A stretch of 64,000 bases of DNA, from NCBI RefSeq assembly GCF_014653945.1, contig NZ_BNAU01000004.1, positions 1 to 64,000 on the forward strand. The letters are read 5' to 3'. This DNA is from Amycolatopsis deserti. GTDB lineage: Bacteria; Actinomycetota; Actinomycetes; Mycobacteriales; Pseudonocardiaceae. Numbering within the stretch: the stretch's first letter is position 1; each line of letters begins with the position of its first letter. The notes under the pieces were generated by a model. The model did not search any database. It was given only the letters and a program-made list of their open reading frames with translations, and was not told the origin of the DNA. Below are positions 8,371-43,262 of the stretch, piece after piece. The position numbers were made by a program, and so were the translations under genes.

Positions 8371-9588
8371 TCAGCAGTTTGATGGCGCCTCCCTTCCGGC
8401 GAAACGCTCGGTGATCCACTTGTGGGCGTCCGCGTTGCCGGCGAAGATGCCGCTCAGGTGGTCCGACACGTACGTGCTCCACTGTTCCCGCACGCCCGCC
8501 GCGCAATAGTGCTTGTGCAGCGCGTCCGCTTGTGGGGTGTTCACGATCTCGTCCAACGCCGCGTGGTACTGGAACACCGGGACGCGTGGTGGCGCCGCGC
8601 CCAGCTTGTTTTCCGCCAGGCGCGCCTGCCACGCCTGCGTCTCCAGCGGGTTCGACGTCGTGTAATCCGAAATTCTCTTGAACGCGTAGTTCGTCAGCAG
8701 CTCCACCACACACGCGTTCTGCTTGGCCGCCGCGATCTCCTTCCGGCCCGTCTCATTCAGGTACGAATCCAGCCGCAGCTCGGGATACGCCGCATCCAAA
8801 CCAGCCGCCGCGAAGGCCAGGAAACCGAAACCCAGGTACCCGTCCAGGCCCTTCGCCACCTCGGTCAACTCCGCCGGCACACCGCCGGCCACCACACCCA
8901 CCAGATTCATCTCCGGCGCGTACGTCGGCTGCTTCTCCGCCGCCCACAGCGCTCCCCCGCCGCCCTGCGAGTAGCCCTGGAAGATCACCTTCGCCCCAGC
9001 GGACAAACCGGCCTGCGAGAAACGCTGCGCGGCCCGCACCGAGTCGATCACCGCGGGGCCCATCGACTGGCCGGTGATGTACGTGGGCACGGTGTTCGGC
9101 GAGTAACCCTCGTAATCCGTGACCGCCACGGCGTAACCACTCGACAGCGAGTCGTTGATCGCCGGCTGGTCGTACAGCGTTCCGCGCTCGATGGCCTTCG
9201 ACGGGGTGCACTTGAACGCCGGCCCCTGCGTCCCCACGGCGAAACCGACGATCGGCGCCTTCGACCGGTCCACCCCCTTCGGCACCAGCACCGTCCCGGT
9301 CACGGCGTTCCGCTCCCCCAACGCGTTCGTCGACAGGTACATGACCTCCCACGCGTCCGCGTTCGCCGCGTTCATCAGCGGCACCGTCGGCCGCCAGCGG
9401 ATCACGTCACCCGGACTGCCCGCCGGAAGCGGTGACGGCGGGGTGTAGAACGAATCGTCGAACGGACCCGGCAACACCGGGCTCGCGGCGACCGCGGACG
9501 GCGGCGAAAACGCCACCGCCCCGCCCGCGAACAACATCAAACCCACCAGCGCGGCCAGCAGCCGACGCCGGAATTCACGGTTCTTCAC
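8371..9588 (-). CDS. Secreted LIP-family lipase/esterase
   Basis: An alpha/beta-hydrolase of 405 residues resembling the secretory lipase (LIP) family. A signal peptide spans about 1-35 (RRRLLAALVGLMLFAGG). The nucleophile serine is in GYSQGGGG, and the C-terminal SDHLSG region probably supplies the catalytic histidine. It would hydrolyse or transfer acyl esters outside the cell. GTG at 9588 is preceded by AAAGGAG. It starts 11 bases after the antigen-85-like gene and is the last gene of the fadD - pks - accD block. In Mycobacterium the corresponding locus also holds a secreted lipase (Rv3802c), though of a different (cutinase-like) family. Confidence 0.88.
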   Translation of the reverse strand: MKNREFRRRLLAALVGLMLFAGGAVAFSPPSAVAASPVLPGPFDDSFYTPPSPLPAGSPGDVIRWRPTVPLMNAANADAWEVMYLSTNALGERNAVTGTVLVPKGVDRSKAPIVGFAVGTQGPAFKCTPSKAIERGTLYDQPAINDSLSSGYAVAVTDYEGYSPNTVPTYITGQSMGPAVIDSVRAAQRFSQAGLSAGAKVIFQGYSQGGGGALWAAEKQPTYAPEMNLVGVVAGGVPAELTEVAKGLDGYLGFGFLAFAAAGLDAAYPELRLDSYLNETGRKEIAAAKQNACVVELLTNYAFKRISDYTTSNPLETQAWQARLAENKLGAAPPRVPVFQYHAALDEIVNTPQADALHKHYCAAGVREQWSTYVSDHLSGIFAGNADAHKWITERFAGREAPSNC

Positions 9589-9599
9589 ACGTTTCTCCT

Positions 9600-10592
9600 T
9601 TACAGACCAAGAGCCGGAGCGAGCACCGGCCACGAGTTGTGCAGTGCCCGTTCCCAATACGGCCAGCTGTGCGTGCCCGCGCCGTAGTAGTCCACAGTGG
9701 CCGGAACGCCCATCAGCTTCAGCTTGTCGGTGAAGCTGCGGGACGTGAGCAGCGCCGCCGGTTCGAGCGGATCCCACTGCCCCGGCTGATCCAGCGGGCC
9801 GGTCCGGCCATCGCCGCACGAGATGTAGAGCGCGGTACCGCGCAGGTCGTCGATGTGGTTGTACGGATTGCGCGACCACCAGATCGGCCAGCTCGCCTTC
9901 TCGTCACCCCACAGGTCGAAGAAGTTGTAGTGCCCGGCCCGGACCAGGATGCCCTGGATCACCTCGGGTGTACCGGGGAACAACGTGTTCGGAATTCCGC
10001 TGTAGGAAGCCGCCGCGCCGAACATTCCCTTGTGGAGGAACGCGTACGCCAGCGCGCCATAACCACCGATCGAAACCCCGGCCACCGCTCGCCGAGTGCC
10101 GCCGCGATACCCGCGTTCGACGATCTGCCGAACCTCTTCCGTGTGAAACTTGTCCCAGTCCGGTGTGGACTTCAGCCCGAAGTTCCACCACTTCGTGTAC
10201 ATGCCGGCCTCGCCGTCGGAGGGCATGACGACGATCGCGTCCTTGTCCGCGATGAACGCCTTCACGTCGGTGAACCGGTCCCACGACTGGTAGTCCGCCG
10301 GCTCGCAGCACCCGTGCAGCAGCCACAGCGTGGGCCAGGTCCGCGCGGGCTCGGCGCGCCACCTCGCGGGCACGATCAACCGCACCATGCCGGTCTTGCC
10401 CAGCGCGGGCGAGTCGATCTCCAGGTCGACCGTCCGGTCGTCGATCCAGGTTTCGGTGACCACTTTCGCTCCGTCGTCGGCGCTGACGGCCGACACCGGC
10501 GCGGCCACCGCGGTACCGGTGACCATGGCGACGACGGGCAACACCAGCAAGACCCAGCGGCGTCGGTGGCGCCCGGCCCGATCGGTTCTCAT
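9600..10592 (-). CDS. Antigen-85-like secreted acyltransferase/esterase
   Basis: An esterase-D/antigen-85-type alpha/beta-hydrolase (330 residues). A long positively charged signal peptide covers about 1-36. LWLLHGCC precedes the domain core; the nucleophile is S174 in AGVSIGGYGAL, and the C-terminal GTHSWPYWERALHN (H308) is very like the THSWEYW segment that carries the catalytic histidine of mycobacterial Ag85. Ag85 proteins transfer mycoloyl groups onto trehalose and arabinogalactan. Here the acyl donor would be the product of the adjacent PKS (inference). ATG is preceded by GAGGAG, and the gene lies 20 bases after accD. Confidence 0.85.
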   Translation of the reverse strand: MRTDRAGRHRRRWVLLVLPVVAMVTGTAVAAPVSAVSADDGAKVVTETWIDDRTVDLEIDSPALGKTGMVRLIVPARWRAEPARTWPTLWLLHGCCEPADYQSWDRFTDVKAFIADKDAIVVMPSDGEAGMYTKWWNFGLKSTPDWDKFHTEEVRQIVERGYRGGTRRAVAGVSIGGYGALAYAFLHKGMFGAAASYSGIPNTLFPGTPEVIQGILVRAGHYNFFDLWGDEKASWPIWWSRNPYNHIDDLRGTALYISCGDGRTGPLDQPGQWDPLEPAALLTSRSFTDKLKLMGVPATVDYYGAGTHSWPYWERALHNSWPVLAPALGL

Positions 10593-10612
10593 CGGTTCTC
10601 CTCAGGTGTTTC

Positions 10613-12193
10613 TCACAGCGGGATGTTGCCGTGCTTCTTCGCCGGCAACGTCTGCCGTTTCGTGCGCAGGGTGCGCAACGCGCGAGCCACCTGCAGCCGG
10701 GTCTGCGACGGCGGCACCACCATGTCCACGTATCCGCGCTCGGCCGCCAGGTACGGGCTCGCGTGGTGCTTGCGGTACTCCTCGGTCAGCCGCCGCACAG
10801 CAACGGCACTATCCTCAGTGGACAGTCGGGCCAGCTCGTGCCGGTGCAGCACGCCGACCGCTCCTTCCGCGCCCATCACCGCGATCTCCGCGGTCGGCCA
10901 GGCGAGGTTGACGTCCGCACCCAGGTGCTTGGACCCCATCACCGCGTACCCGCCGCCGTACGCCTTGCGCGTCACCACGGTCACCTTCGGCACGGTCGCC
11001 TCGGAATAGGCGTAGATCAGCTTCGCGCCGCGGCGGATGATGCCCTGCCGCTCCTGCTCGGTGCCCGGCAGGTACCCGGGCACGTCGGCCAGCGTGAGGA
11101 TCGGGATGCCGAACGCGTCGCAGAACCGCACGAACCGGGCGGCCTTTTCGGACGCGTCGATGTCGATCACCCCGGCCTGCCGCAGCGGCTGGTTGGCGAC
11201 GATCCCGACCGAGCGCCCCTCGATCCGGCCGAACGCGCAGATCATGTTGGGCGCGAACGCGCCGTGGATCTCGGTGAACTCGCCGTCGTCGACCAGCCGC
11301 CGGATCACCTCGGTCATGTCGTAGGCCTGGTTGAGCGAGTCCGGGATCAGCCGGTCAAGCTCGAGGTCGCCCGGGGTGATCTCGCGGGACGTCTCGTCCG
11401 CGTACTCCGGCGGCACGTCCAGGTTGTTGAGCGGCAGGTACCCGAGCAGGGTCTGCACCCAGTCGATCGCGTCGCGCTCGTCAGCCGCCCGGTGGTGCGC
11501 GTTGCCGGAGATCTCGCTGTTCACCGCCGCGCCGCCGAGCTGCTGCGCGGTCACACGCTCACCGGTCACCGCGTGCACGACGTCCGGCCCGGTCACGAAC
11601 ATGTGCGAGGTGTCCTCGACCATGACGGTGAAGTCGGTGATCGCCGGCGAGTACACCGCACCGCCCGCGCACGGCCCCATGATCATCGAGATCTGCGGGA
11701 TCACCCCGGACGCGTGGGCGTTGCGCCGCCCCAGCTCGGCGTAGTAGGCCAGCGACACCACACCCTCCTGGATGCGCGCGCCGCCGGAGTCGTTGATGCC
11801 GATGACCGGGCAGCCGATCGACATCGCCAGGTCCATCACCTTGAGGACCTTCTCGCCGAAGACCTCGCCCATGCTACCGCCGAACACGCTGAAGTCCTGC
11901 GAGAACAGGCACACCTGCCGACCGTCCACAGTGGCGTGCCCGGTCACCACGCCGTCGCCGTAGGGCCGGTTGCCGTCCATGCCGAACTCGGTGCAGCGGT
12001 GCCGCGCGAACTGGTCCAGCTCCACGAAGGACCCGTCGTCGACGAGCAGGTCGATGCGCTCGCGAGCGGTCAGCTTGCCCTTGGCGTGCTGCCGGTCGAT
12101 CGCGCGCTTCTCCGCGATGCGCACGGCCTCGTCCTGACGGGCGGCCAGATCGGCGATCCGGTAGGCCGTCGTCGGGGCGAACGGGATGTCCAC
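10613..12193 (-). CDS. Acyl-CoA carboxylase carboxyltransferase (beta) subunit
   Basis: A 526-residue biotin-dependent carboxyltransferase of the PccB/AccD type. Both crotonase-like halves are complete: [24 protein letters not shown] and [12 protein letters not shown] in the first; [21 protein letters not shown] and [15 protein letters not shown] in the second. It would move CO2 from biotin to an acyl-CoA, supplying a carboxyacyl extender. The closest match I recall is AccD5/PccB rather than AccD4, so chain length is open. No biotin carboxylase alpha subunit is encoded nearby; it must come from elsewhere. GTG at 12193 has GAGGT upstream and lies eight bases after the PKS stop, implying translational coupling. 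Confidence 0.92.
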
Positions 12194-12201
12194 TGCGGAC
12201 C

Positions 12202-15200
12202 TCACCTCTTCCCGGTCATCCGGTCGCCGAGCGCCGCCGCGATGACGGACACGTGCGGCGGATCGATCATCGAGACGTGGTCGCCGGGCACCGGCACGAT
12301 CTCCAGGGCCGGGCAGAACTCGTCCCAGCCCAGCGACTCGTCCTCGCGCAGGTAGCGCGGGTCGAGCGCGGTCGTCAACGGGTGCGGCTCCCGCGCGCGG
12401 AACAGCACCACCGGACCGTCGTACCGCCGGGGCGTGTACCGCTCTGCCACCCGGGCATCCACATAGGACGTGTACTGGTGGTGCAGCACGCCCTCCCCCA
12501 GCCCGGGCACCTTCTCCGCCAGCTGCCGCATGACCAGCCTGATCTGCTCGTCCTCGCCGAGCCGGGCCAGGTCGTCGCGCGGGATGTCCAGGGTGACGCC
12601 GTAGGTTCGCGAGATGTGCGTGGCGAACCGGTCGAACCGGTCCAGCAGCTCCTCGGCGGGCGTCTCGGCCGGCAGCGGCAGGATGGTGTCGATCAGGAAC
12701 ACCAGCTCGACCGGTTCGTCCAGCTGCCGCGCACACTCGTAGGCAAGGCAGCCGCCGAACGACCACCCGCCGAGCCGGTACGGCCCGTGCGGCTGGATCT
12801 CCCGGATCATCTCCAGGTACCGGGCAGCCTTGGCCTCGACGGTGTCCACATCGTCCAGACGCTCGAAGCCGTAGACCGGGAACTCGCCGGGCAGGTCGCG
12901 CACCAGTCGCGTGTAGACGCTCGCCGGACCGCCCGCGGGGTGGAACAGGAACACCGGCCGCCCGCTTCCGGCACGCAGGCAGCGCACCGGTCCCGTACCC
13001 TCGATCTCCGCACGAAGCAGGTCGGCCATCGCGGCGATCGTCGGCCGGTCGAACAGGTTGTCCGGGAGGTCCGGGAGTTCCGCCGCCATCGCCGCGCGCA
13101 ACTGCTCCGGATCACCGGGGAAGTCCTCGTGCACACCCGAGAAGCGGCCGAGCACGTCGTGCCAGTGCCGGGCGACCCACCGCTCGGCGGGATCCCGCGG
13201 CCCGATGACCACCTCGGCGACCGGGGCGGGGCCGGTGGAGAACCCGGCCTGCTCGGCGAGGTGGGCCGCCAGTTCGGCGAGGCTCGCGCCGCGCAGCAGC
13301 ATCGGCACCGGTAGCGGTAGGCCGAAGTCGCGCTCGACCGCGCCGCGGGCCCGCATCGCGAGCAGCGAGTCCACGCCGAGCTGGGTGAGCGGGACGTGCC
13401 GGTCGACCTGCTCCGGTGCGAACCCCATCAGCCCGGCGACCAGCGACGTGAGGTGGTCGGCGATGGCCGCGTGCCCGGTCGCCGGTTCCAGCGCGTCCAG
13501 GCCGGGCCAGGCCGGGGCCGCCGTGCGCCGCGGCACGAGCAGGTCGAAGAACGGCCGGTCGGCCAGGCGCGGGAACAGCTCCAGCACCGCCTCCGCGTCG
13601 AGCCGGGCCACGCCGGTCGCCACGCGGTCGCGGGTCAGCACGGCCTCCAGCGCTTCCAGCGCCTCGGCGGTGCCGAGCGGTTCGAGCACCGGGTTCGTGG
13701 TGCCGACCGCGGCGCCCGCCTCGCCCCACGCGCCCCAGTTGATCGTCTCGGCCGGCAGGCCCTGCGCGCGGCGCCAGGTGACCAGCGCGTCGGCGTAGGC
13801 GTTGGCCGTCGCGTACGCGGTCTGGCCGGGTGAGCCGAACAGCGCGGCCGCCGACGAGTAGACCAGCCACCAGTCCAGGTCGTGGCCGAGCGTGGCCTCG
13901 TGCAGCCGCCAGGCGCCCGTCGCCTTCGGCCGCCACGCCGTCGTCAGCTGCTCGGGGGTCAGCGACATCGCCGCACCGTCGGCGAGCACACCCGCCGCGT
14001 GCAGGACACCGCGGAGCGGCACTCCCCCGCTGGTCGCGGCCTCGACGAGCCGTTCCGCCACACCGGGTTCGGCGATGTCCCCCGCCACCACGACCGCGCC
14101 GCGGACATCGACCTCGCGCGCGGTCCGTCCAGACAGGACGATCCGCGAAGCACCCCGCTCGGCCAGCCAGCGCGCCGCGACCAGACCCAGCCCGCCGAGG
14201 CCACCGCTGATCACGTACGCGCCGTCGCGGACCGCCGGCCGCTCGGCGGCCCCGAGCCTCGGCCGGGTCAGCCACCGGGTGTGCCGGACGCCCCGCCGCC
14301 ACGCGATCTCGTCGTCCGGGCCGTCCGCGCGCAGCTCGTCCGGCAGCCGGTCCAGCGACTCCGGGTCGACGTCGACCAGGCTCGCGTGCAGCTCGGGGTG
14401 CTCGAACGCGAGCACCCGGACCAGCGCCCGCAGGCACGCCAGGTCCGGACGCCCTGGCTCATCGGGATCGACCGCGGCCGCCGAGCCGGTCACCAGCCAC
14501 AGCCGGGCGGGTGACTCGGCCAGCTCGGCGACCACCCGCGTGACCTCGTGCACGAGCGCCGGACCGTCCGCATCCCGCGCGAACCACACCACGCCGTCCG
14601 GGCGGGTCGCCAGCGCCGCGCGCAGCGCTTCCCGGTCGCCGGGCGGAACCACGACCACCCGGTCGTCGCCGAACCGCAGGCCCGGGTCGCCGTGGTGCAG
14701 CAGCACCCAGGTCCGGTCCTCCTCGGCCGCACCGGGCAAGTCGGTCCGCGCCCAGCTGGCCTCGAACAGCTTGGCGGACAACGGAACCGGCAGCGCGGCC
14801 CGCCGGAACCGGCGGGCGTGCACGTCGCGGAACTCCACCAGCACGCTGCCATCGGCGGCGGCGAGCTGAACCGTGCCGCGCAGGTCGTCGCCGGTCAGCG
14901 ACTCGACCACCGCGACGGCCCGCACCCCGGACCGCGGATCGCCCGCGACCGTGACCGCCCCGATCGACATCGGCAGGAACAACCCGTCCGCCTCGCGCAG
15001 CGCGGGACCGGTCGCCGCGGCCAAGGCGTGCAGGCAGGCGTCAGCCAGCGCCGGGTGCAGCACGTGCCCCGCCGGCTTGGGCATCTCGACGGCCGCCGAC
15101 GCGCGCCCGGCCACCGCGGTGACGTCGCGCAGCAGCCGGAACGCCGGGCCGTAGCTCATGCCCATCGCGTCCAGCGCCGGGTAGAGGTCGACCGGCGCGC

Positions 15201-18200
15201 CGTCGACGGCCCCCAGCGGCCGCAACGGCACCGGCTCGCCGACCCGGGCGGTCGCGTGGCACACCCAGTCGCCCGGTTTGGTGTGCACGCTGATCACGCC
15301 ATCTGCCAGCGAGGTCGTGACCTCCTGCTCCGCGCCCAGCGGCAGGATCTGACGCAGCTCGACGTCGGTGACGCACGGCCCGGCCGCGGCCAGGGCCAGC
15401 TCGACGAACCCGGTGGCCGGGAAGATCGGGGTGCCGAAGGCGGCGTGGTCGGCGAGCCAGGGGTGCCGGTCGGTGCCGATTTCGCCGCGCCACACCCGCT
15501 GGTTGCTGCCGGGCACCTCGGCGTGCGTGCCCAGGAACGGGTGGCCCGCCGTCCGCGCCGGCCGCTGAGCCCAGAACCGCTCGTGCCGCCACACCGTGCC
15601 GGGCAGGTCGGCGACCGGTTGTGCGGGCTCCCGAGTCCGCAACGCCGAAGGATGGCCGAGGACGTGCAGGCGGGCCAGGCTGGTCAGGAACGCGATCCGC
15701 TCGTCGGTCTTGCGGCTCGCGGTCGGCAACCCGGTCCCCCCGGCCTGCTCGATCGCCGCCAGGGCCACCGGATGCGGCGCGATCTCGACGAACGTGCCGT
15801 GCCCGTCCTCGACCGCCGCGGCCAGTGCCTGGGCGAACCGCACTGGGCGGCGCAGGTTCGCCGCCCAGTAGTCCACATCGAACAGTGGTTTGTCCCGTGG
15901 ATCGTCCAGCACGCTGGTGTAGCACGGCACCTCCGGACTGCCCGGATCCACCGTGAGCCCGGCGCGGAAGCGGTCCAGGATCGCGTCGACCGCGGGCGAG
16001 TGCCCGGCCCCGCTCACCGGCAGCAGCTTCGCGAACCGGCCCTGACCCTCCACATGCGACACCAGCGACGCGACCGCGTCCACGGCACCGGTGACCGTGC
16101 ACTGCGTCGCCGACGCGTACACCGCGACCTCGACCGCGGGAAACTGCGCGATCTCCGCGGCCGCCGCCTCGACCACGGCCATCGCACCCGCGCCGGCCGC
16201 GTCGATCTCGCCGAGCAGCCGGGCACGGGTCGTCATCACCCGCAGCCCGTCCGCGACATCCAGCGCCCCGGCGACCACGGCGGCGGCGACCTCGCCCATC
16301 GACTGCCCGAGCACCGCCGCCGGGGTCACGCCGTGCGCCCGCCACAGCCCGGCGAGGGCGACCTGCATCCCGAACAACGCCAGCTGCGTCGCCGCAAGGT
16401 CCGGCGGTTCCCCGGCCAGCATCTCGCGCAGCGAGAGCCCGGCCTCGGCGCGGAACACCGCGTCGAGCCGGTCCACCTCGGCCGCGAACGCGGGCTCGGT
16501 CGCCAGCAACCGCCGTCCCATGCCGGACCACTGCGAGCCGTAGCCGGAGAACACGAACACGACCCCGTCCAGCCGGCCCTGCCCCGGCTCCACCTCGCGC
16601 AGCGCGGCAACCAGCTCCGCACGCGAGGAGGCCACGACGGCGGCACGCACCGGCAGGTCGTCGCGATGGTGGGCCAGCGTCGAGGCCACCGCGCTGAGCG
16701 GCACGTCCGACGACTCGACCCACCGGGCCAGCTCCGCGGCCCGGTCCCGCAGCCCGTCGGCCGACCGGTCGGACACGGCGAAGACGTGCGGGCCCTCGAT
16801 GTCTTCGAACCGCGGGGTGGCGGGCCATTCCTCCAGCACGACGTGCGCGTTGGTGCCGCCGAACCCGAACGCCGACACGCCCGCCCTGGCCACGCCGGAG
16901 TAGCGCGGCCACGGGGTCGGCTCGGTGACGACTCGCAGGCCGTCGAAGTCGATGTGCGGGTTCGGGTCGCGGAAGTGCAGGCTCGGCGGCACCCGGCGGC
17001 GGGACAGCGCGAGCACGGTCTTGATGAAGCCGGTGATGCCGGCCGCGCCCTCCAGGTGGCCCAAGTTGCTCTTCACCGAGCCGAGGAGCAGCGGCCGGTT
17101 CGCGTCCCGCCCCAGCACGCGCTTGAGCGCGCCGGCTTCGATCGGGTCGCCGAGCAGAGTCCCGGTGCCGTGCGCCTCCACGTAGTCCACAACGGACGGA
17201 TCCAGCGCGGCCGCCGCGTAGGCGTCGCGCAGCAGCGCGGCCTGCGCCTCCGGGTTGGGCGCCGTGATGCCGTTCGACCGGCCGTCGGAGTTGACCGCGC
17301 TGCCGCGGATCACCGCCAGCACCCGGTCGCCGTCACGGCGGGCCGCGCGCAGCGGCTTCAGCACGACGACCCCGCAGCCCTCGCCGCGCGCGATCCCGTC
17401 CGCGCCCGCGTCGAACGGCTTGCACCGGCCGTCCGCGGCGAGCACCCCGGCCTCGGCGAAGTTCGCCGTGATCCCCGGCGACAGCAGCAGGTTCACGCCG
17501 CCGACCAGCGCGGTACCGATCTCGCCGCGCTGCAGGCTCTGCACCGCCTGGTGCACGGCGACCAGCGACGACGAGCACGCGGTGTCGATCGTGAGGCTCG
17601 GACCACGCAGGTCGAGCAGGTACGACAACCGGTTCGCGGCGATGCTCGCGGCGGCGCCGGTGCCGGACCACGCGTCGATCGCCGACACGTCGGTCATCGT
17701 GAGGTAGCCGTACTCGCTCGCCGACAGCCCGACGAACACGCCCGTCCGCGTGCCTCGCAGCGACGAGGGCGGGATGCCCGCGTGCTCCAGCGCCTCCCAG
17801 GCGACTTCGAGCAGCAGCCGTTGCTGCGGGTCCATCGCCTCGGCCTCGCGCGGGGTGATGCCGAAGAAGGCGGCGTCGAAGCCCAGCGCGTCGTCGAGGA
17901 ACCCGCCCCGGCGGGGCAGCGCGGCCAGCTCGGTGGCGGTCGCGAAAGACTCCCAGCGACCTTCGGGCACCTCGCCGATCCCGTCGCCGCCGAATTCCAG
18001 GAGCCGCCAGAACTCCTCCGGGGACGAAATGCCGCCCGGCAACCGGCAGCCGAGGCCGACGACAGCGACCGGCTCACCCGGCTCGGGGGTCCACCGCGCC
18101 GGTGACCCCGGTTCCACTTCGGACAGTGCGGCGACCAGGTCCGTGATCGTCGGGTGTTCCCAGACCAGGGTCGCGGGCAGGGACCGGTCGAGGAGCCGCC

Positions 18201-18339
18201 CCAGGTCACCGGTCAACGTCATCGCGTCGCGCGAGGACAACCCGGTTTCCCGCAGCGGTTTGGCCGGGTCGACCTCGGCAGCGGGGATTCCGAGCATGGT
18301 GGACACCCGGTCCACCAGCCAGGCACGCAGGTCGGTCAT
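12202..18339 (-). CDS. Pks13-like single-module PKS: ACP-KS-AT-DH-KR-ACP-(ACP remnant)-TE
   Basis: 2045 residues. ACP1 (1-75; S36 in TGLSSRDAM, very like the Pks13 N-terminal ACP); KS (88-505; C255, H390, H428); AT (593-890; S680 in GQSMG, with SGAGHS at 776-781 where YASHS or HAFHS is usual); DH (932-1180; H965 in [11 protein letters not shown]1100 in DACLH); KR (1370-1560; GGLGGLG, Y1509, LAD in place of LDD); ACP2 (S1658 in LGVDSLL); a carrier-like segment without the serine (1716-1781); TE (1790-2045; S1860 in GWSFGG, H2021). All active sites look intact. By analogy with Pks13 it would condense a FAAL-activated acyl chain with a carboxyacyl unit, then reduce and dehydrate on the enzyme. 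The ATG overlaps the fadD stop (ATGA). Confidence 0.9.
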
Positions 18340-20009
18340 GCGAGCCGCCGCGCGTCGAGCGAGCCGTCCAGGTAACGCTGCCGGGTCAGGACCCGGCTGA
18401 TCTTGCCGCTCGACGTTCGAGGCACCTCGCCGGGTTCGGTGAACACCACGTCGCGCAGCCGCAGGCCGTGCACAGCGGAGACTTCGGCCCGCAGCCACGC
18501 GGCCACCTCGTCGAAGTCGGCCTCGGCGTCGCGGGCTCGCTCCAACACGACCACGGCGACTTCACCGTCCAGACCGGGCACCGAGAACGCGGCGGCGGAG
18601 TGCGGCCGGACCACCGGATGCGCTTCCACGGTCTGCTCGACGTCCTGCGGGTAGTGGTTGCGGCCGTCGACGATGATCAGGTCCTTCATCCGGCCGGTCA
18701 GGAACAGCTCGCCGTCGAAGATCACCCCGAGGTCGCCGGTCGCCAGCCAGTCCCCGGACTCGCCCGGCGCCCGACGGCCGAAGGCCGCGTCCGGCCGGTC
18801 CCAGTACCCCTGGCCGATGTTCGGGCCGCTGACCCAGATCTCGCCGACCGTGCCGTCCGGCACCGGAACACCGTCCGGATCCACGATCCGGATCCGCTGG
18901 CCGACCGGGCGGCCGCAGGACACCAGCGTGGTGGTGGCCCCGCCGGAGGCCGGGCTCGCGGTCCCCGCCGCCAGCCGGTCCCGGTCGAAGGTGACCTGCC
19001 GCGACGGCGTTCCGGCGTCGGTCACCGACACCAGCACGGTCGCCTCGGCCAGGCCGTAGGACGCGCGGTGCACCTCCGGCCGCAACCCGCACTCGCCGAA
19101 GGCGTCCTGGAACTTCGCGATCGTGGACGGCAGAACCGGTTCGCTGCCGTTGATCAACGACACCACCCGGCTCAGCTCCAGGTAGCTCTTCTCCCGTTCG
19201 GACACCCGGGACGCGCTGTAGGCGTAGGCGAAGTTCGGCGCGGCGCTGATCGCACCCGGGCTGGCCGACAGCGCCCGCAGCCAGCGTTCCGGCCGCTCCA
19301 GGAACGCCAGCGGGTCCATCAGCACCGAGGTCAGGCCGCCGACCACCGGCGCACCAACGCCGAGGATCAAGCCCATGTCGTGGAACAGCGGCAACCAGCT
19401 CACGGTCGACGTGGTGCCGCGCCGCCCGCCGTAGGCCCGCAACGCCTGCTGTGCGTTGGTGACGACGTTGCGGTGCGTCAGCATCACGCCGGCCGGGCTG
19501 CGCGTGGACCCCGAGGTGTACTGCAGGTACGCCAGGTCGTCCGGGTCCGGGGCCGGCCACTCCCGCGTGCCCGAGCTCGCGGGAACCGTGTCCACCACCA
19601 GGATTTCCGGGTCCGCCACCAGGCCCTTCACGTCGTCGCGCTCGTCGTCGGTGGTCAGCACGAGCGCGGGCGAGCAGTCGTCGAGCACCGTGGCCAGCCG
19701 GTCGCCGTGCCCGGGCAGCGACGGCGCGAACAACGGGACGGCGACCAGGCCGGCGCGGATCGCGGCGAGGAAGGCCACCACGTAGTCGACGGACTGGTTC
19801 ACCAGGACGGCCGCGCGGTCACCCGGCTCGGCCAGCTCGCGGGCGTGCTCGGCCACCGCGCTCACGCGGTCGTCGAGTTCGCGCCAGGTCAGGGAGATCG
19901 CGTGCCCGTCGGCGCTGGTGCGGTAGTCCAGGAACGTCACGGCGATCTCGTCGCCCTGCACGCGGGACCAGTATCCGAGCATGGTGGCGAACGAAGAATT
20001 CTCTGTCAT
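18336..20009 (-). CDS. Fatty-acyl-AMP ligase (FadD32-like)
   Basis: A 557-residue ANL-superfamily adenylating enzyme of the FAAL branch. Motifs: YTSGSTRSPAGVMLTH (about 164-179), SWLPLFHDMGLI, LINGSEPV, SYGLAEAT, TGDLG and GRNHYPQDVEQTVE, the last typical of FAALs, with the C-terminal lysine in TSSGKIS. FAALs activate fatty acids as acyl-AMP and pass them to an ACP rather than to CoA; the overlapping PKS begins with such an ACP. It lacks the N-terminal extension of mycobacterial FadD32. ATG at 20009 is preceded by GAGGGA, and a strong promoter lies just upstream. Confidence 0.9.
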   Translation of the reverse strand: MTENSSFATMLGYWSRVQGDEIAVTFLDYRTSADGHAISLTWRELDDRVSAVAEHARELAEPGDRAAVLVNQSVDYVVAFLAAIRAGLVAVPLFAPSLPGHGDRLATVLDDCSPALVLTTDDERDDVKGLVADPEILVVDTVPASSGTREWPAPDPDDLAYLQYTSGSTRSPAGVMLTHRNVVTNAQQALRAYGGRRGTTSTVSWLPLFHDMGLILGVGAPVVGGLTSVLMDPLAFLERPERWLRALSASPGAISAAPNFAYAYSASRVSEREKSYLELSRVVSLINGSEPVLPSTIAKFQDAFGECGLRPEVHRASYGLAEATVLVSVTDAGTPSRQVTFDRDRLAAGTASPASGGATTTLVSCGRPVGQRIRIVDPDGVPVPDGTVGEIWVSGPNIGQGYWDRPDAAFGRRAPGESGDWLATGDLGVIFDGELFLTGRMKDLIIVDGRNHYPQDVEQTVEAHPVVRPHSAAAFSVPGLDGEVAVVVLERARDAEADFDEVAAWLRAEVSAVHGLRLRDVVFTEPGEVPRTSSGKISRVLTRQRYLDGSLDARRLA

Positions 20010-20097: not shown

Positions 20098-21519
20098 TTA
20101 CTCACCGCGGGACGAGGATCCGGCGGACTTCGTTGTCACGGCGGGAAGAACTTTCCGGGCGGGAGCGCGGAACACCCACAGGGCGAGCACCGCGCCGGCG
20201 ATTTCCAGGGCGGCCGCGACGAGCAGCCCGGCCGTGTAACCCGTGGCGAGGGCGGGCCCGCCCAGGGCGCCTTCGTCGAGCCGAGCGGCACGCACGGCGG
20301 TCAGCACCGCGCCGATCAACGCGACTCCCATCGCGCTGGACAGTTCCCGGGACGCGGTCAGCAGGCCCGATGCCGTGCCCGCGTGCCGTTCTTCGGTGAT
20401 TTCCAGCGAATACGAGGTCAACGGTGTGGTCAACGCCGAGCCCGCGCCGATCAGGAGCAGCCCGGGGATGCGCGGCGGCACCTCGGGGATGTGGTTGATC
20501 GCGGCCACCGCGAGCAGTCCCAGAGCCACCACCAGCAGCCCGGCGCACACGGTCCGATGTGGACCGAGGCGGGCCATGACCCACGGGACCGCCGGGGTCA
20601 CCGCCATGATCGCGACCGCGACCAGCACCAACGGCAACCCCGCCCCCACCGGGCTCAGGCCGAGCGAGTCCTGGTGCAGCAACGGCGTGAAGAAGAAGAT
20701 CCCGGACACCCCGAGCCCCCACAACAGTTGCACGGCCAGCGCGCCGGTGAACACCCGCTCCCGCACCAGATCGCGCGGTACGAGCGGGTCCCGCGCCCGG
20801 CGTTCGCGAATGGCGAACCACGCGATCAGAGCCAGCCCGCCGAGCAGCGGCGCCGCCTCGGACAGCCGGGCGTCGTCGCCCAGCCCGACCAGCGCGGCCG
20901 CGACCAGCACGAGCCCGGCCGTCACCAGCACCATCGCCGCGAGCGCCGGGCGCCGGGCGTCGCGCACCCGGCCGGTACCCGCGGTCGCGGGCAGCAGCAC
21001 GAGCATGACCAGCACGAACGGCAGGTTGCTGAAGAAGATCCAGCTCCACCCCACGTACTCGGACAGCAGTCCGCCCAGCGTCGGGCCGAGCGCGAGCGCG
21101 ACCGCCAGGCACGCCGTCCACAGGGTCGCGCCGATGGCCCGCTGCCTGCTGTCCAGGTTGGTGCGCAGCAGGCTGAGCAGCGCGGGCACCAGGAACGCGG
21201 CGGCCACGCCCTGCACCACGCGCGCGGCGATCAGCAGCGCACCGGTGGTCGCGAAGCCGCCGGCGGCCGCGCCCAGCCCGAACGCGACGAGCCCGCCGCC
21301 CAGCGTCCCCCGCTGCCCCCACCGGTCCACCAGCGTCCCGGCGACCAGCAGCAGGCCCGCGAACGGGAGCATGTAGCCGATGCTGACCCACTGCAGCGTC
21401 GCGAGGTCCAGCGAGAGGTCGTGCCCGATCGAGGGCACCCCGGCGGCGACGATGGTGTTGTCCAGGGTCGTCACGAACGCGCCGAGCGCGACGACCAGCA
21501 GCGTGCGGCCCGGGTTCAC
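20098..21519 (-). CDS. MFS exporter, DHA2 (14-TMS) type
   Basis: A 473-residue membrane transporter with about 14 hydrophobic helices and the usual early MFS motifs (LDNTIVAAGVPSI near residue 20, DRWGQRGTLGGG near 65). Relatives are proton-driven exporters of drugs and lipophilic compounds. GTG at 21519 lies six bases after the R2lox stop. Same strand as the PKS block and 88 bases upstream of fadD, so it may export the product or an intermediate; a resistance role is equally possible. Confidence 0.85.
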   Translation of the reverse strand: MNPGRTLLVVALGAFVTTLDNTIVAAGVPSIGHDLSLDLATLQWVSIGYMLPFAGLLLVAGTLVDRWGQRGTLGGGLVAFGLGAAAGGFATTGALLIAARVVQGVAAAFLVPALLSLLRTNLDSRQRAIGATLWTACLAVALALGPTLGGLLSEYVGWSWIFFSNLPFVLVMLVLLPATAGTGRVRDARRPALAAMVLVTAGLVLVAAALVGLGDDARLSEAAPLLGGLALIAWFAIRERRARDPLVPRDLVRERVFTGALAVQLLWGLGVSGIFFFTPLLHQDSLGLSPVGAGLPLVLVAVAIMAVTPAVPWVMARLGPHRTVCAGLLVVALGLLAVAAINHIPEVPPRIPGLLLIGAGSALTTPLTSYSLEITEERHAGTASGLLTASRELSSAMGVALIGAVLTAVRAARLDEGALGGPALATGYTAGLLVAAALEIAGAVLALWVFRAPARKVLPAVTTKSAGSSSRGE

Positions 21520-21525
21520 CGCCGC

Positions 21526-22458
21526 TCACCGCACCGCGTCTTCGTCGTGGAAGTCCTCTTCCAGCTGCTCCGGGCTGTAGTCGAGGTCGATCCGGTCCAC
21601 CGGCGTGCCGCGCGCCGACTCGATGGCCTTGAGCCGGCGCATCGCGTGGTCGGCGGCGTATTCCATCACCCCGTCCAGCCGCAGGTCGAACGGGTCGCCG
21701 TCGAGCTTCTTCGTGGTCCACTCGATCTGCGCGATGGCGTGCGGCAGCAACGCCTGCATCTCGTCCTGCACCACCTGCCAGTTCGCGTCGTCGGCGGCGA
21801 CGTGGCGGCGGCAGGTGAAGGTGCCCCACGCCATGTGGCGGCGTTCGTCGTCGCCGATGCGGCGGATCAGCTCCTGCATCCCGGGCAGGATCCCGTGCGC
21901 CCGGCAGGCCCGGTTCCACACGAAGTAGCCGGTCAGCGCGAGCACGCCCTCGACGACGTGGTTGTAGACCACCGAGGCGCGGACCTGGTTGGCCGGGCTG
22001 GGCTCGTGTTTGAGCCGCTCCAGCGCGGTGGGCAACGCGTCGTAGAAGATGGCGCGGTAGCCGGGGTTGTCCTCGACGTGCTCGTGCAGGTTGCCGGTGA
22101 CCCCGACGGCGTCCAGCCACAGCCGGAAGCCCTGCGTGTGCTTGGCCTCCTCGAAGCAGAACTGGGTCAGGTACATCTCGTCGGCGAACCGGCCCTCGGC
22201 GGCCATCGCGGACAGGAACGGCTGGATGTCGTGCGTGACCGCCTCCTCGCCACCGGCGAACTGCGCGCACAGCATGGTCGCGGCGAACCGCTGCGTGTCC
22301 GACAGCGCCGCCCAGTCCCGCGCGTCCTGGCCGAAGTCGATGTCGGCGGGGTTCCAGAACTTCGCGTTGCCCTTGGCGAACAGGCGCAGCGGCAGGACGT
22401 CCCAGTTCAGGCCGCCCGCCCGCAACGCGGTGAACTCCTCGCGGATGGTGGTGGTCAC
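21526..22458 (-). CDS. R2-like ligand-binding oxidase (R2lox)
   Basis: A 310-residue ferritin-like protein very close to the mycobacterial R2lox (Rv0233) type. Metal ligands are visible in [15 protein letters not shown] (about 102-109), YNHVVEG and [11 protein letters not shown]. The V and Y that form the Val-Tyr ether crosslink in R2lox (V74, Y165) are present. Known members carry a Mn/Fe centre, bind a long-chain fatty acid and are thought to oxidise lipids. Placement in a lipid-assembly directon supports modification of an acyl chain (inference). GTG at 22458 directly abuts the upstream TGA. Confidence 0.9.
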
Positions 22459-24033
22459 TCAAGCCCTCCCGGGGTGCACGGGGACGTCGAGCCAGGCCGG
22501 ATCGGCGGCGGTGGAGGCGAACCCGAGCCGGCCGCCGCCGGAGTTCCAGTCCAGGAACAGCGGGTCCTTGGAGTCGATGACGAGCGCGAGGTGGTGTCCC
22601 GCGGCGACGGTGTAGGCGGTGGGGGTGAACACGAAGTCGGCCGGCAGCGGTTGCCCGGGCGTCGCGGTCTTCCAGCTGTAGGGCAGGTAGCTGATCAGGC
22701 TGCCCAGGCCGAAGCGGTCGACGTCGTAGACGTAGGCGACCGCGGTGCCGGTGGCCGCGGGCGGGACCACCGTGAGGTGCGCGTGCATCGAGCCGCGGAT
22801 TTCGACTGGTTGGCCGCTGGACGTCTGGCTCCACACCGCGCCGCTGCCGGGGTCCACTTGGGGCAGGAAGATGTTCGGCGGGTTGCCGGTCATCGCCTCG
22901 AGGCTGTAGGTCGCCAGCGGCAGCCCGCCGTCGGCGACCGTGTCCCGGTTGGCCGCTACGCCGCGGGTCCACACGGCCGGCTGGTCCTGCAGGGTGTCCG
23001 CGCCCAGGTAGGTCCGACGTGGCTCGCCCAGCACCTCGTCCCAAGTGGACTGGTAAGCCGGTTGCTGCATGCCGGGGCGGGCACGGGTGACGACCGGTGG
23101 TTCGCCCGCGATCGAGGTGTCGGTGCCGGCCACGTGGGCGTCGAACCAGCGGTAGACCGAGGTCCAGGTGTCGCTGGGGAGCCCGAGCAGGCCGCCGGAT
23201 TCGGCGGCGGCGTGGTCGCCGGGCAGGAACTCCGCGCGCTTCGGCCCGGTCAGGCGCTGGTAGAAGGCGGCCATCTGGCCGGGCGGGAACATGGTCTCGC
23301 TCCAGGTCTGGATGGCCAGCACCGCGGGCCGGTTCGCGTTGATGCGATCGAGGTAGGTGACCGGTGAGCGGGGCCGGGCCCACGCGATCACCGCGTCGGA
23401 GTCGGCATCGGAGATCCGCGGTTGCAGGTAGGTCCGCAGCATCGCGTCGGTTTCCGCGCTGAGGGTGCCGTTCGCCTTGCCGGACAGGTAGAGCACCAGT
23501 CCGGCCAGCCCGTGCCGGGTGTCGTTCGTGCTCAGCGAGGCGACCAGGTCCGCCCAGCCGCTGAGCGAGGCCACCGCGCGGATCCGCGAGTCGAACCCGG
23601 AGGCGATCAACGCGATCCCGGCGCCGTAGGACACCCCGCCTACGCCGATGCGGGACGGGTCGGCTTCGGTGTTGCGCAGGGCCCAGTCGATCACGGTCGT
23701 GACGTCGGTGATGTCGTCCGGCCCGGCGACCTCAACCTCGCCGGTCGATTCGCCGAAACCCCGGGCACCGTAGGAAACCACGACGTAACCACGGTTCGCG
23801 AGGTCGCGGGCCGGGATGATGTTCTGCGTCCGGCCGCCACCCCACGCTCCGATGAGGACGGCCAGCGGGTGTGGTCCCGGCGAGGCGGGCTTCATCACCA
23901 TCGATCCCAGCGCGACTCCGTCGGCGGTGTGGATGTCGAGGAACTCCGTGTCGAATCCCTCGGCCGCGGCGGGTATTCCGGGGAGGACCGCCCCGAGCAA
24001 CGCGAGAACGACAGCGGTCACGCGGTGTTTCAT
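22459..24033 (-). CDS. Secreted CocE/NonD (S15-type) hydrolase
   Basis: A 524-residue exported alpha/beta-hydrolase. The signal peptide is about 1-24 (VVLALLGAVLPGIPAAA). The nucleophile is in GGVSYGAG, a GDHAA segment probably carries the histidine, and the C-terminal third is the jelly-roll domain of X-Pro dipeptidyl-peptidase/CocE proteins. Members hydrolyse esters or peptides; the substrate is unknown. ATG at 24033 gives a proper signal peptide, whereas the upstream start at 24069 would not. It is in line with the MMPL gene (32-base gap) and abuts R2lox. Confidence 0.8.
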   Translation of the reverse strand: MKHRVTAVVLALLGAVLPGIPAAAEGFDTEFLDIHTADGVALGSMVMKPASPGPHPLAVLIGAWGGGRTQNIIPARDLANRGYVVVSYGARGFGESTGEVEVAGPDDITDVTTVIDWALRNTEADPSRIGVGGVSYGAGIALIASGFDSRIRAVASLSGWADLVASLSTNDTRHGLAGLVLYLSGKANGTLSAETDAMLRTYLQPRISDADSDAVIAWARPRSPVTYLDRINANRPAVLAIQTWSETMFPPGQMAAFYQRLTGPKRAEFLPGDHAAAESGGLLGLPSDTWTSVYRWFDAHVAGTDTSIAGEPPVVTRARPGMQQPAYQSTWDEVLGEPRRTYLGADTLQDQPAVWTRGVAANRDTVADGGLPLATYSLEAMTGNPPNIFLPQVDPGSGAVWSQTSSGQPVEIRGSMHAHLTVVPPAATGTAVAYVYDVDRFGLGSLISYLPYSWKTATPGQPLPADFVFTPTAYTVAAGHHLALVIDSKDPLFLDWNSGGGRLGFASTAADPAWLDVPVHPGRA

Positions 24034-24065: not shown

Positions 24066-26048
24066 TCAACGGATCCGCCCGGCTTTGTCACGTGCGGTAG
24101 GAACTGGCGCGGCGGGATGCTCACGCCGGCGCGAGGGCCACCAGTTCGCCGCGCCCAGCCGGACCATGACGGCGGGCACGAGCAGGCAGCGGATCACGAC
24201 CGCGTCCACCAGCACGGCGACCGTCAGCCCGACGCCGGCCTCGCGAACCACGCGACTGTCCACGAACGCGAACGCCGCGAACACCAGTGCCATGATCAGC
24301 GCGGCCGCGGTGATCGTCCGTCCGGTCGAGACGAGTCCCTCGACGATCGCGGTACGCGTGTGACCGGTGCGGCGCCAGTCTTCCTGGATACGCGAGATCA
24401 GGAAGACCTCGTAGTCCATCGACAGTCCGAACAGGCCGGCGAACAGGAACACCGGCAGGTACGGCTCGATCGGGCCGCCGAACACCGCCACCACTACGCC
24501 CAGCGTCGCGCCCGCGGTGAGCAGGTTCATCACCGCCGCGGTCAGCGGGATCAGCACGCTGCGGAACACCAGAGCCAGCAACAGCACCGAAATCGCCACG
24601 ACGGCGGCGAGGAAGAGCGGTAACCGGCTGGTCACCGCCGCCGAGAAGTCGGTCTGCACGGCGACCGCGCCGCCGACGTGCCACCCCGGGCCGGTGACCT
24701 CGCGCAGCCAGGTCACCAGCTCGGCCGTGGCCGGATCGTCCGGGCCGGTGCGGGGCGTCACGGTGAGGACCGGTCCCTGCGGCGGGCTGACCCCAGCCCT
24801 GGTGGCGACGATCTCACGCAGGGCTTGGGTCGCCGCTGCGTCGGCTCGATCGGTGACGAGGACGAGCTGGGCGTTGGCGCCCGGGCCGAAACCCTCGGCG
24901 AGCAGCGTGTCGGCGATCTTCGTCGGACTGCCCGGCGGGTCGTGTCCGGCGCCGGGCACCCCCAGCCGCAGCACCAGCGCGGGCGCCGCCAGCACGGCGA
25001 TGACCAGCACAGCGGCGATCGCGTAGGGCGCGGGACGCCGGGTGACCGAGCGGGCCAGCCCGGCCCAGCCGGGGCCCGGTGCGGAATGTCTGGGCAGCTT
25101 GCGCATGCCGGTGAGCCGGAGCAGCGCCGGGAGCAGTGTGAGCGCCGCGAGCATGGTGAGGGCGACCGCCGCGGCCGAGGTGATGGCGATGCCGTCGAGG
25201 AACGCCAAGCCGACGGTGAACATGCCGGCCAGCGAGACGCAAACGGTGACACCGGCGAAGACCACGCTGCGGCCGGACGTTTCCGCCGCGCGTTGCAGCG
25301 CTTCGGCCGGTGGCATACTTTCGCGCAGGCCCTGCCGGTACCGGGTGAGCACGAACAGCGCGTAGTCCACGCCGACACCGAGCCCGAGCAGCGCGGCGAT
25401 CTCCGTGCTGATCTTCGGCACGGTCAGCACGTGCGACAGCAACACGACCACGGCCAGCGCCGAGCCGACCGACACCGCGGCGGTCACCACGGGCAGCACC
25501 ACGCAGGTGAGCGAGCCGAACGTGATCAGCAGGACGATCGCGGCCGCGAGCAGGCCGATGCCGGCGTTGCCGAGGTTGGGCGCGCCGACGGTCATCGCGG
25601 CGAGCTGTCCCGAGACGCCGACGGTCAGGTTGTCGGATTGCGCGGCTTCGAGGAGTTCCTGGGCCGGCTCGGGGCCGAGTTGCTCGGCGGGGGCGTCGAA
25701 GTTGACGAGGATCACCGCGGTGCGCCGGTCGGCCGACACCAGTTCCGGTGCGGCGTAGGGCGAAACCACCTGCGTGACGCGGTCCACACGGGACAGTCTT
25801 CGGAGCAGCGGCTCGATCTGGTCCCGGGCGGTGTCGATCGTGCCCGTCGTGGCGATGACCACGCGTTCGGTGTCGCCCTTGGGCAGCAGCTCGGCGGCGC
25901 GCGTGCTGTCCGCGGCCGGCAACGCGACGGTGTCCCGGTACGCGGCGCCGGTGTGCTGCGCGGCGAGCACGAGACCGGCGAGTGCGAGCAGCCACCCGGC
26001 GATCACCCAGGGCGCGTGCCGGAAGCACCGCGACGCGAGTCCTGCCAT
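24066..26048 (-). CDS. MMPL/RND-family transporter
   Basis: A 660-residue RND-type exporter with two homologous halves. Each has one N-terminal helix, a periplasmic-type loop and five helices. GLGVGVDYALFVLTRYR in the first half and LSMDYEVFLISRIQED in the second are the MMPL signature segments with membrane aspartates. MmpL proteins export lipids, MmpL3 being the trehalose-monomycolate flippase; this one is shorter and closer to the YdfJ-like group. ATG at 26048 follows GGAGGAGG. It is the first gene of the nine-gene directon and is divergent from a PucR-type regulator. Confidence 0.88.
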   Translation of the reverse strand: MAGLASRCFRHAPWVIAGWLLALAGLVLAAQHTGAAYRDTVALPAADSTRAAELLPKGDTERVVIATTGTIDTARDQIEPLLRRLSRVDRVTQVVSPYAAPELVSADRRTAVILVNFDAPAEQLGPEPAQELLEAAQSDNLTVGVSGQLAAMTVGAPNLGNAGIGLLAAAIVLLITFGSLTCVVLPVVTAAVSVGSALAVVVLLSHVLTVPKISTEIAALLGLGVGVDYALFVLTRYRQGLRESMPPAEALQRAAETSGRSVVFAGVTVCVSLAGMFTVGLAFLDGIAITSAAAVALTMLAALTLLPALLRLTGMRKLPRHSAPGPGWAGLARSVTRRPAPYAIAAVLVIAVLAAPALVLRLGVPGAGHDPPGSPTKIADTLLAEGFGPGANAQLVLVTDRADAAATQALREIVATRAGVSPPQGPVLTVTPRTGPDDPATAELVTWLREVTGPGWHVGGAVAVQTDFSAAVTSRLPLFLAAVVAISVLLLALVFRSVLIPLTAAVMNLLTAGATLGVVVAVFGGPIEPYLPVFLFAGLFGLSMDYEVFLISRIQEDWRRTGHTRTAIVEGLVSTGRTITAAALIMALVFAAFAFVDSRVVREAGVGLTVAVLVDAVVIRCLLVPAVMVRLGAANWWPSRRREHPAAPVPTARDKAGRIR

Positions 26049-26213
26049 CCACCTCCTCCCAACCTGGCCGGAGCGCCAAGCTAGCAACGGGTTCCGCGCC
26101 GGGAACAGGGGTGACGAGGTTTTTCGCTTGGCGGTGACACATTTTCCGCGACGGGTGCGTCCGGCCGTGACAGTCTCGACTAGCGAGCGTTGCGCGGTCC
26201 GGGAGGATGTGCG
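26049..26213. promoter_or_regulatory. Divergent promoter region between MMPL and PucR genes
   Basis: 165 bases separate two divergent genes and must hold both promoters. The stretch around 26118-26150 (TTTTTCGC, ACACATTTTCC) is AT-richer than its surroundings. I see no clean palindrome or consensus -35/-10 pair. Confidence 0.4.
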
Positions 26214-27404
26214 TTGATTCCGGACATGGCGACCAGTCAGGCACGCAGACTGTGGTTCTCGCTGCCCGCCGAGCTCGCCCGGCGGTTCCGCCCGCACGCG
26301 GACCGGCTGGCGACGAAGATCCTCGACGAGATCCAGCACGCGGTGCCCGAGTACGCCAAACCGCTGGAGGGGCAGTTCGGCGAGGTGATCGTGCGTGCGA
26401 TCGAGCAGGCCGTGCTGAGCTGCCTGGACAGCATCGAGGACACGCGGTCCACATCGGACCACTGGGGCCGGATGTTCCACGAGGTCGGCAGGCGCGTCTA
26501 CCACGACGGCGGGAGCCTGAACTCGTTGCAGGCCGCCTACCGCGCTGGTGGTCAGGCGGCGTGGCGGTACGTGTCGAGCTTCGGCCAGTCGATGCGCTTG
26601 CCGGTGCCGATGCTGTGCGTGAGCGCGGAGGCGATCTTCGCCTACGTGGACGAGATTTCGTCGTACTCGGTGGAGGGTTACACGCTGGCCCAGGCGCGGG
26701 CGACGGGCACGCTGGAACGTCGGCGGCGCCGGTTGCTGGAGCTGATCCTCGCCACGCCGCCGTCGTCACCGGCGGCCGTGGCGTCGATGGCGAAGGCGGC
26801 GCAGTGGGAGGTGCCCGAGTGGGTCACGGTGGTGGCGCTGGAACCGTTGGCGGAGGAGCAGTTCCCGCCCGTCCTCGGCGCGGACGTGTTGGTGGACCTG
26901 GAAGGCGCCTCACCGTGCCTTCTCACGCCCGACCCGGCGCGCGACCTGGCGGAGATGCCGCATTGGCGAGCGGCGGTGGGCCCGCGGGTGCGGGTGTCGG
27001 ACGCCGCGACGTCGCTGCACTGGGCGCGGCGGACGCTGGAGCTGGTGGGAGCGGGTGTCATCCCGGCCGCGCCGGTGGTGCACAGCGCGGACCACCTGAC
27101 GGCGTTGTGGTTGCTGCAGGACCGGTTCCTGCTGGACGAGCTGTCGGCGCGGGTACTGGCGCCGTTCGGCCCGCTGACGCCGAAGCAGCAGCTCCGGCTG
27201 GCCGAGACGCTGCTGGCGTGGGTCAAGTGCAACGGAAACACACTCGACATCGCTCGGCTGCTGGACATCCACCCGCAGACGGTGCGGTACCGGGTGGCCC
27301 AGCTCGGGGAGCTGTTCGGGGACCGCCTGGGCGACCCGGAGGAGCGGCTGAAGATGCAGATCACGCTGGAGGCGCACCACCTGCTGGGGACGCGGCCGGA
27401 GTAG
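26214..27404 (+). CDS. PucR-family transcriptional regulator
   Basis: About 396 residues. The N-terminal half is a helical sensor-like region as in actinobacterial PucR/CdaR-type proteins. The C-terminal about 70 residues hold the PucR helix-turn-helix (ETLLAWVKCNGNTLDIARLL, DIHPQTVRYRVAQLGELFG). It should bind DNA and respond to an unknown ligand. TTG at 26214 sits seven bases after GGGAGG and is preferred; ATG at 26226 lacks a close ribosome-binding site. It is divergent from the MMPL gene and is the best candidate regulator of the lipid directon. Confidence 0.8.
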   Translation: MIPDMATSQARRLWFSLPAELARRFRPHADRLATKILDEIQHAVPEYAKPLEGQFGEVIVRAIEQAVLSCLDSIEDTRSTSDHWGRMFHEVGRRVYHDGGSLNSLQAAYRAGGQAAWRYVSSFGQSMRLPVPMLCVSAEAIFAYVDEISSYSVEGYTLAQARATGTLERRRRRLLELILATPPSSPAAVASMAKAAQWEVPEWVTVVALEPLAEEQFPPVLGADVLVDLEGASPCLLTPDPARDLAEMPHWRAAVGPRVRVSDAATSLHWARRTLELVGAGVIPAAPVVHSADHLTALWLLQDRFLLDELSARVLAPFGPLTPKQQLRLAETLLAWVKCNGNTLDIARLLDIHPQTVRYRVAQLGELFGDRLGDPEERLKMQITLEAHHLLGTRPE

Positions 27405-32761: not shown

Positions 32762-32831
32762 GGTTACCTCCGGCAACAGTCAGTGGTCGCCGGAGACTCA
32801 ACCCCAGCGCTGGGCACCTCGGGAAACCGAG

Positions 32832-43247: not shown

Positions 43248-43262
43248 TGAACGGTCCTTTCA
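43248..43262. repeat. Distant copy of the TGAAYGGNCCGTTCA palindrome
   Basis: TGAACGGTCCTTTCA differs by one base from the palindrome family at 7581-7985, 35 kb away. It sits at the edge of the 23-base tandem array. Confidence 0.6.

Follow-up and report, generated by a model that had tools for sequence, protein, structure and literature searches.

According to a review (PMC6194230), mycolic acids are exclusive to the Corynebacteriales, antigen 85 (Ag85) is exclusive to mycolate-positive species, and the Pseudonocardiales have arabinogalactan without mycolates. A description from Amycolatopsis (PMC11004387) reports no mycolic acid and one unidentified glycolipid, which weighs neither way on the product considered here. 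Also from Amycolatopsis is a cryptic cluster with a single polyketide synthase (PKS) module and an MccB homologue, which Ray et al. 2016 (PMC5187497) describe as widely conserved in Amycolatopsis and of unknown product. Here we analyze the start of contig NZ_BNAU01000004.1 (our C4) of Amycolatopsis deserti, a member of the Pseudonocardiaceae, positions 1 to 64,000 (the window) of a 7.74 Mb genome, and in it a cassette of five genes for a fatty-acyl-AMP ligase (FAAL), a single-module PKS, an AccD carboxyltransferase, a secreted PS1/Ag85-like acyltransferase and a secreted lipase. We think it somewhat probable that this cassette makes a mycolate-like lipid through FAAL-PKS-AccD condensation, and that the lipid is exported and transacylated outside the cell. 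The reading draws on intact motifs, the ketosynthase (KS) and acyltransferase (AT) clades, the motifs of the N-terminal carrier (ACP) and AT domains, the AccD residues, the kinship of the transferase, the gene order and an arabinosyltransferase elsewhere in the genome (family PF04602, 607 bits).

The five genes lie on the minus strand in tight succession, as an earlier note on this DNA had reported, and Pfam places each in the family given there. The FAAL (FadD32-like, 557 aa, Pfam AMP-binding) occupies 18336..20009 with an ATG start at 20009, the PKS 12202..18339 (ATG at 18339), AccD 10613..12193 (GTG at 12193), the transferase 9600..10592 (ATG at 10592) and the lipase 8371..9588 (GTG at 9588). 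With these best starts FAAL and PKS share 4 bases, and AccD, the PS1-like gene and the lipase each begin after a short gap, of 8, 20 and 11 bases respectively. The GC content at third codon positions is 0.94, 0.93 and 0.88 in the FAAL, PKS and PS1-like open reading frames (ORFs). The order FAAL-PKS-AccD is that of fadD32-pks13-accD4 in the ten mycolate loci compared, with the difference that the transferase lies downstream of the FAAL in the cassette and upstream in the mycolate locus. The association of these genes is not a matter of chance, because among 20 transferase-bearing loci, chosen by hand from the transferase matches listed, 16, counting the incomplete L046, have a PKS homologue, and in 14, spread over six genera, the FAAL, PKS, AccD and transferase genes occur together.

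Pfam gives the PKS the domain order ACP-KS-AT-DH-KR-ACP-TE, and a degenerate carrier-like stretch can be read by eye between the last ACP and the TE. Read from the sequence, the domain and catalytic motifs are intact. The earlier note had correctly described an N-terminal ACP and a C-terminal TE and had left the DH and KR domains unmentioned. The highest-scoring NCBIfam family is Pks13, at 1309 bits against an equivalog cut-off of 2100, and the presence of DH and KR departs from the Pks13 layout, ACP-KS-AT-ACP-TE without reductive domains; the score and the two domains together rule out Pks13 proper. A profile search of the genome found no place above that cut-off, which is passed in 19 of 150 genomes of the order, all 19 in one family (f8). 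The motifs nevertheless resemble those of Pks13. At the N-terminal ACP, Pks13 has GL(S/A)SRDA and many cassettes have GLSSRDA. Of 36 cassette rows, 23, the window's among them, have GAGH as their AT motif; of the 10 Pks13 rows, 3 have GAGH and 7 GASH. Among the outgroup ATs the search pattern caught a motif in 22 of 31 rows, and caught none in L263, L268 and L269, the nearest to the cassettes in the AT tree.

Phylogeny points the same way. The KS tree (72 rows, midpoint root) joins in one clade 30 type A cassettes, 2 type B cassettes (a form with Pks13-like layout, described below), 9 Pks13 rows and the loci L063 and L072, and separates it with a support of 99/93 from the remaining 29 PKS rows, which come from the same order; a second support value for the grouping of the KS with Pks13 is 99/83. 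A first KS tree held 36 of the 39 type A loci (without L046, L051 and L064); for the 72-row tree near copies were thinned and L280, which contains stop codons, was dropped, and the outgroups are part of the other Pks13-profile matches in the order. The AT tree, also rooted at its midpoint, has a 98/98 clade of 24 of 27 type A rows with type B, Pks13, L063 and L072; L251, L199 and L284 fall just outside it, together with three PKS rows of f8. By sequence, then, the KS and AT of the cassette PKS share common ancestry with Pks13. A grouping of PKS or FAAL with the cluster of an unrelated secreted polyketide, which the earlier note had listed as contrary evidence, was not obtained.

The best PDB match of the FAAL is 5d6j_A, an acyl-CoA synthase that we take to be M. 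smegmatis FadD32 (6.7e-131), followed by chains named FadD32. Its NCBIfam FadD32 score of 517 bits lies below the equivalog cut-off of 975. In the midpoint-rooted FAAL tree FadD32 sides with the cassettes and 8 of 10 other f8 FAALs fall across the split; exceptions are the cassette FAAL L204 on the far side and the non-cassette FAALs L072, L283, L286 and L290 on the near side. Separately, the genome holds a second FAAL (44%) in L288 (G000:C1:694000-713999) and, about 20 kb from it, another KS-bearing ORF of 2139 aa at G000:C1:722541.

AccD matches PDB entry 5inf best (5.9e-242), one of the MccB entries that Ray et al. deposited (PMC5187497). With acyl-pocket positions taken from the same paper and placed by motif, the window AccD has Gly and Ala in place of Phe and Asp, as do MccB and AccD4; these residues go with medium- and long-chain specificity. 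The 26 cassette AccD rows have Ala in 26, Gly in 23 and Phe in none; the AccD4 rows have Gly in 9 of 10 and Ala in 10 of 10, and a PccB-like copy in the same genome has Phe and Asp. The MccB of the stambomycin cluster is the best PDB match and shares these specificity residues, and there it serves a large modular PKS.

The transferase begins with a signal-like stretch read by eye. Sequence and predicted fold both give C. glutamicum PS1/CmtA as its closest relative of known structure. PS1/CmtA and Ag85 stand ahead of the feruloyl and esterase-D enzymes among solved structures, so that the grouping with ordinary members of those families named by the earlier note as damaging to its case did not emerge. 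The Ser, Glu and His of the triad, at positions that we assume from Ag85, are present together with H-x-W-P-Y-W, and H-x-WPYW recurs in 25 of 27 cassette transferase rows. The DGLRA motif contacts trehalose in Ag85; the window protein has an HGCCE-like sequence in its place, so trehalose as acceptor is not assured. In the transferase tree (94 of 106 rows; proteins shorter than 200 aa were dropped, so the shortest esterase pieces are absent, and of the 24 loci selected for an esterase outgroup 19 yielded a match) the 22 mycolate-locus rows form one clade within a broad PS1-like family, its nearest neighbours being the PKS-linked L204 and L072 with modest support.

The lipase, again with a signal-like N-terminus read by eye, belongs to PF03583 (best PDB match 3guu, Lipase A, 1.9e-38), and Pfam gave it no cutinase match at E 0.001. 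Rv3802c is a cutinase-like lipase, and the window protein is ruled out as its counterpart. Lipase genes are not constant across the sampled loci. We also observed, in Streptomyces L076, L077 and L078, PS1-like genes that have no PKS match and that lie near a lipase gene of the kind seen in the window.

Set against the mycolate locus as a whole, the cassette is alike in KS/AT ancestry, N-terminal ACP and AT motifs, AccD specificity residues and a PS1/CmtA-like secreted transferase; it is unlike it in having KR and DH in cis, in Pks13 and FadD32 scores under the equivalog cut-offs, in the missing DGLRA motif of its transferase and in the family of its lipase. The earlier note had likened the five genes to the functional set of the M. 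tuberculosis region. What stands is a condensation set of the Pks13 type in a bacterium that is not a mycolate producer, with the FAAL-PKS-AccD order, KS/AT ancestry and long-chain AccD residues. A gene-by-gene match is not supported: the PKS is not Pks13, the FAAL scores under the FadD32 cut-off, the lipase gave no cutinase match and the transferase has no DGLRA.

The five core genes are the end of a longer same-strand run. Directly upstream on the minus strand come a major facilitator superfamily (MFS) transporter at 20098..21519 (EmrB/DHA2-like, scoring below the cut-off of that model), an R2lox-type ligand-binding oxidase at 21526..22458 (best PDB match 7qbp, R2lox, 1.4e-148), a CocE/NonD-family hydrolase at 22459..24033 with a signal-like N-terminus read by eye, and an MmpL-family transporter at 24066..26504 (PF03176; best PDB match MmpL3, 1.8e-47) whose start is uncertain and nearer 26.1 kb, so that the unit reaches about 26.1-26.5 kb. 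A PucR-type regulator at 26190..27404 on the plus strand is divergent, and its homologues lie near the cassette in several relatives. Two further observations concern the surroundings. Just downstream of the lipase, at 7687-7985, there are four copies of the near-palindrome TGAACGGNCCGTTCA, each with at most one mismatch, whose starts are spaced at 93-97 bases; a fifth lies at 43248, giving 5 matches against 0.28 expected, and exact copies of a related pattern occur in the own-genus loci L039 and L040. At 32015-32776 the window encodes a lysyl-oxidase-like protein (PF01186), a family that is uncommon in bacteria.

Drawing these genes together, we can outline how such a lipid might be made. The FAAL would adenylate a fatty acid and pass it to the PKS at its N-terminal ACP. 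A medium or long alkylmalonyl-CoA would come from the MccB/AccD4-type carboxylase, and the AT would load the alkylmalonyl unit on the C-terminal ACP. One Pks13-type Claisen condensation by the KS would then give an alpha-alkyl beta-keto thioester, whose keto group the in-cis KR would reduce to give the beta-hydroxy acyl; dehydration by the DH may follow and yield the alpha,beta-unsaturated acyl. Release by the TE would place the acyl on a small polar acceptor, the ester would be exported by the MFS transporter and in this genus also by MmpL, and outside the cell the secreted PS1-like protein would move the acyl on to a second acceptor, with the lipase trimming or recycling the ester. R2lox could hydroxylate a fatty chain; a Geobacillus R2lox is reported as an alkane hydroxylase (PMC10867098). 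The most likely product is an alpha-alkyl fatty acyl that is either beta-hydroxylated or alpha,beta-unsaturated, from a route related to but unlike that of the mycolates. The sequence itself shows the domains, active sites, specificity residues and KS/AT ancestry, and the early steps rest on the domains and residues; chain lengths, acceptors, the direction and place of transfer, and extracellular attachment itself are features that we infer.

The cassette is neither confined to one species nor general. Transferase relatives at E 1e-20 occur in 100 of 249 genomes of the family, and the 16 PKS-bearing loci include an MFS homologue in 14 and R2lox in 8; MmpL adjoins the cassette in the three own-genus upstream stretches examined, and weaker MmpL homologues lie near some other PS1-like genes. 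Of 19 own-genus genomes, 5 have the window FAAL (88-100% identical), and each of these carries the cassette in full. Two more of these genomes, G249 and G242 (loci L284 and L287), have a divergent relative, with FAAL at 47%, KS at 67-69% and a PS1-like protein at 35% (in G242 on another contig), and no AccD match within the stretch. Beyond this family, related PKS cassettes occur in families f2 and f13 of the same order, those of f2 with no transferase found within the stretch. Type B cassettes, from genus g16 (L186-L189), follow Pks13 in domain order, gave no DH or KR matches and include FAAL and MFS. The PKS of L188 scores 1278 bits, below the Pks13 cut-off, and in the two of the four loci that were scanned, L188 and L189, a divergent PS1-like gene is followed by a short-chain dehydrogenase/reductase (SDR) and a glycosyltransferase. 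An assignment of that SDR as CmrA was not established: it matched only general SDR families, below cut-offs, and the genome search returned many similar SDRs. Among the best 80 of 524 relatives, many PS1-like members have no PKS that was seen nearby, those of Streptomyces and Micromonospora being examples. In L056 and L065 (Sciscionella and a relative) two PS1-like genes and MmpL stand close together without a PKS, and in L072 (Nonomuraea candida) a PS1-like gene lies near a related PKS, MmpL and FAAL, and the transferase adjoins the mycolyltransferase clade.

Several results weigh against a mycolate-like product. The DH of the window PKS is intact and Pks13 has none, and 13 of the 36 cassette AT rows are not GAGH. 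None of the 27 type A and none of the 4 type B transferases has the DG(L/M)RA motif, against 18 of 22 mycolate-locus rows. Most cassette transferases cluster with PS1-like proteins remote from any PKS; these stand-alone proteins share HGCC and H-x-WPYW with them and outscore the mycolate-locus proteins on a cassette profile, so the transferase alone cannot tell mycolyl-type function. The AccD tree (24 of 26 cassette rows, with L249, L250 and the own copies L261 and L262 absent) is a polytomy that takes in the PccB-like copy of the same genome, and it does not show orthology with AccD4. The FAAL split has a support of only 84/85, and an approximately unbiased test does not reject a cassette clade without Pks13 (p 0.503), so the test does not decide between Pks13 nested among the cassettes and Pks13 as their sister. 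Finally, so patchy a distribution speaks against a core lipid of the wall.

Patchiness (five of 19 own-genus genomes, and two with the divergent relative) fits the main rival, a secreted glycolipid or macrodilactone of the glucolypsin type, a 2-alkyl-3-hydroxy acyl sugar dimer, for which the PS1-like protein would be an extracellular esterase, dimerase or self-protection enzyme. A related compound comes from Kibdelosporangium, a genus that we take to belong to the Pseudonocardiaceae. Glucolypsin is described as an acyl glucose with 2-methyl-3-hydroxy chains, and the Kibdelosporangium compound as a related dilactone (PMC4365757). The conserved, drug-exporter-like MFS would suit such a product, and the alpha-alkyl beta-hydroxy acyl sugar chemistry of glucolypsin and cycloviracin would fit the type B loci, both scanned examples of which carry SDR and glycosyltransferase beside the transferase. 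The window is another matter: no glycosyltransferase was matched among the scanned operon genes, the likeness is one of chemistry, AccD residues and AT motif point to an alpha branch longer than methyl, and the DH is intact. We regard this rival as a serious minority possibility, on the unlikely side. Compatible with either of these readings, and judged separately, is the proposal that the FAAL-like ligase makes an acyl-CoA for the extender, as suggested for SamR0482, and not the PKS starter; both further MccB-type clusters are said to carry a SamR0482 homologue (PMC5187497), but the nearest PDB relatives of the ligase are FAALs, FadD32 first, and the PKS, in the manner of Pks13, begins with an ACP. 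We hold the proposal to be improbable. That FAAL, PKS and AccD yield a free alpha-branched enoic acid or polyketide, with transferase and lipase as mere neighbouring secreted esterases, would suit the 28 of 36 PKSs whose DH keeps its His and Asp, the inconstant lipase and the PS1-like genes standing alone in Streptomyces and others, but is very unlikely given that the PS1-like gene shares a stretch with the PKS in 16 of the 20 loci sampled from different genera, and does so in several more.

Returning to the mycolate-like lipid that we favor, the genes for it have probably been noticed before. The Amycolatopsis cluster of Ray et al. shares an MccB-type carboxylase, an adenylating ligase and a single PKS module with the window cassette, and the two are, by description, probably the same. 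The main text of PMC5187497 contains none of the terms "Pks13", "antigen 85", "AccD4" and "AMP ligase", and "mycol" only inside Amycolatopsis; a literature search, with subscription papers largely outside it, found no report tying the cluster to mycolate biosynthesis or the condensation locus. What seems new, within that search, is the tie to the mycolate condensation locus, the cluster itself having probably been mentioned already in 2016.

For the family as a whole we would put forward, only tentatively and as a rather doubtful proposition, that Pseudonocardiaceae without reported mycolates make mycolate-like lipids esterified outside the cell, possibly onto arabinogalactan, and that mycolic-acid condensation grew from this older, dispensable cassette family. 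Standard thin-layer chromatography of mycolates might miss such lipids, if the cassettes make them. A homologous condensation-and-transfer cassette in bacteria reported to lack mycolates would offer a concrete relative on which to test ideas about the origin of mycomembrane lipids.

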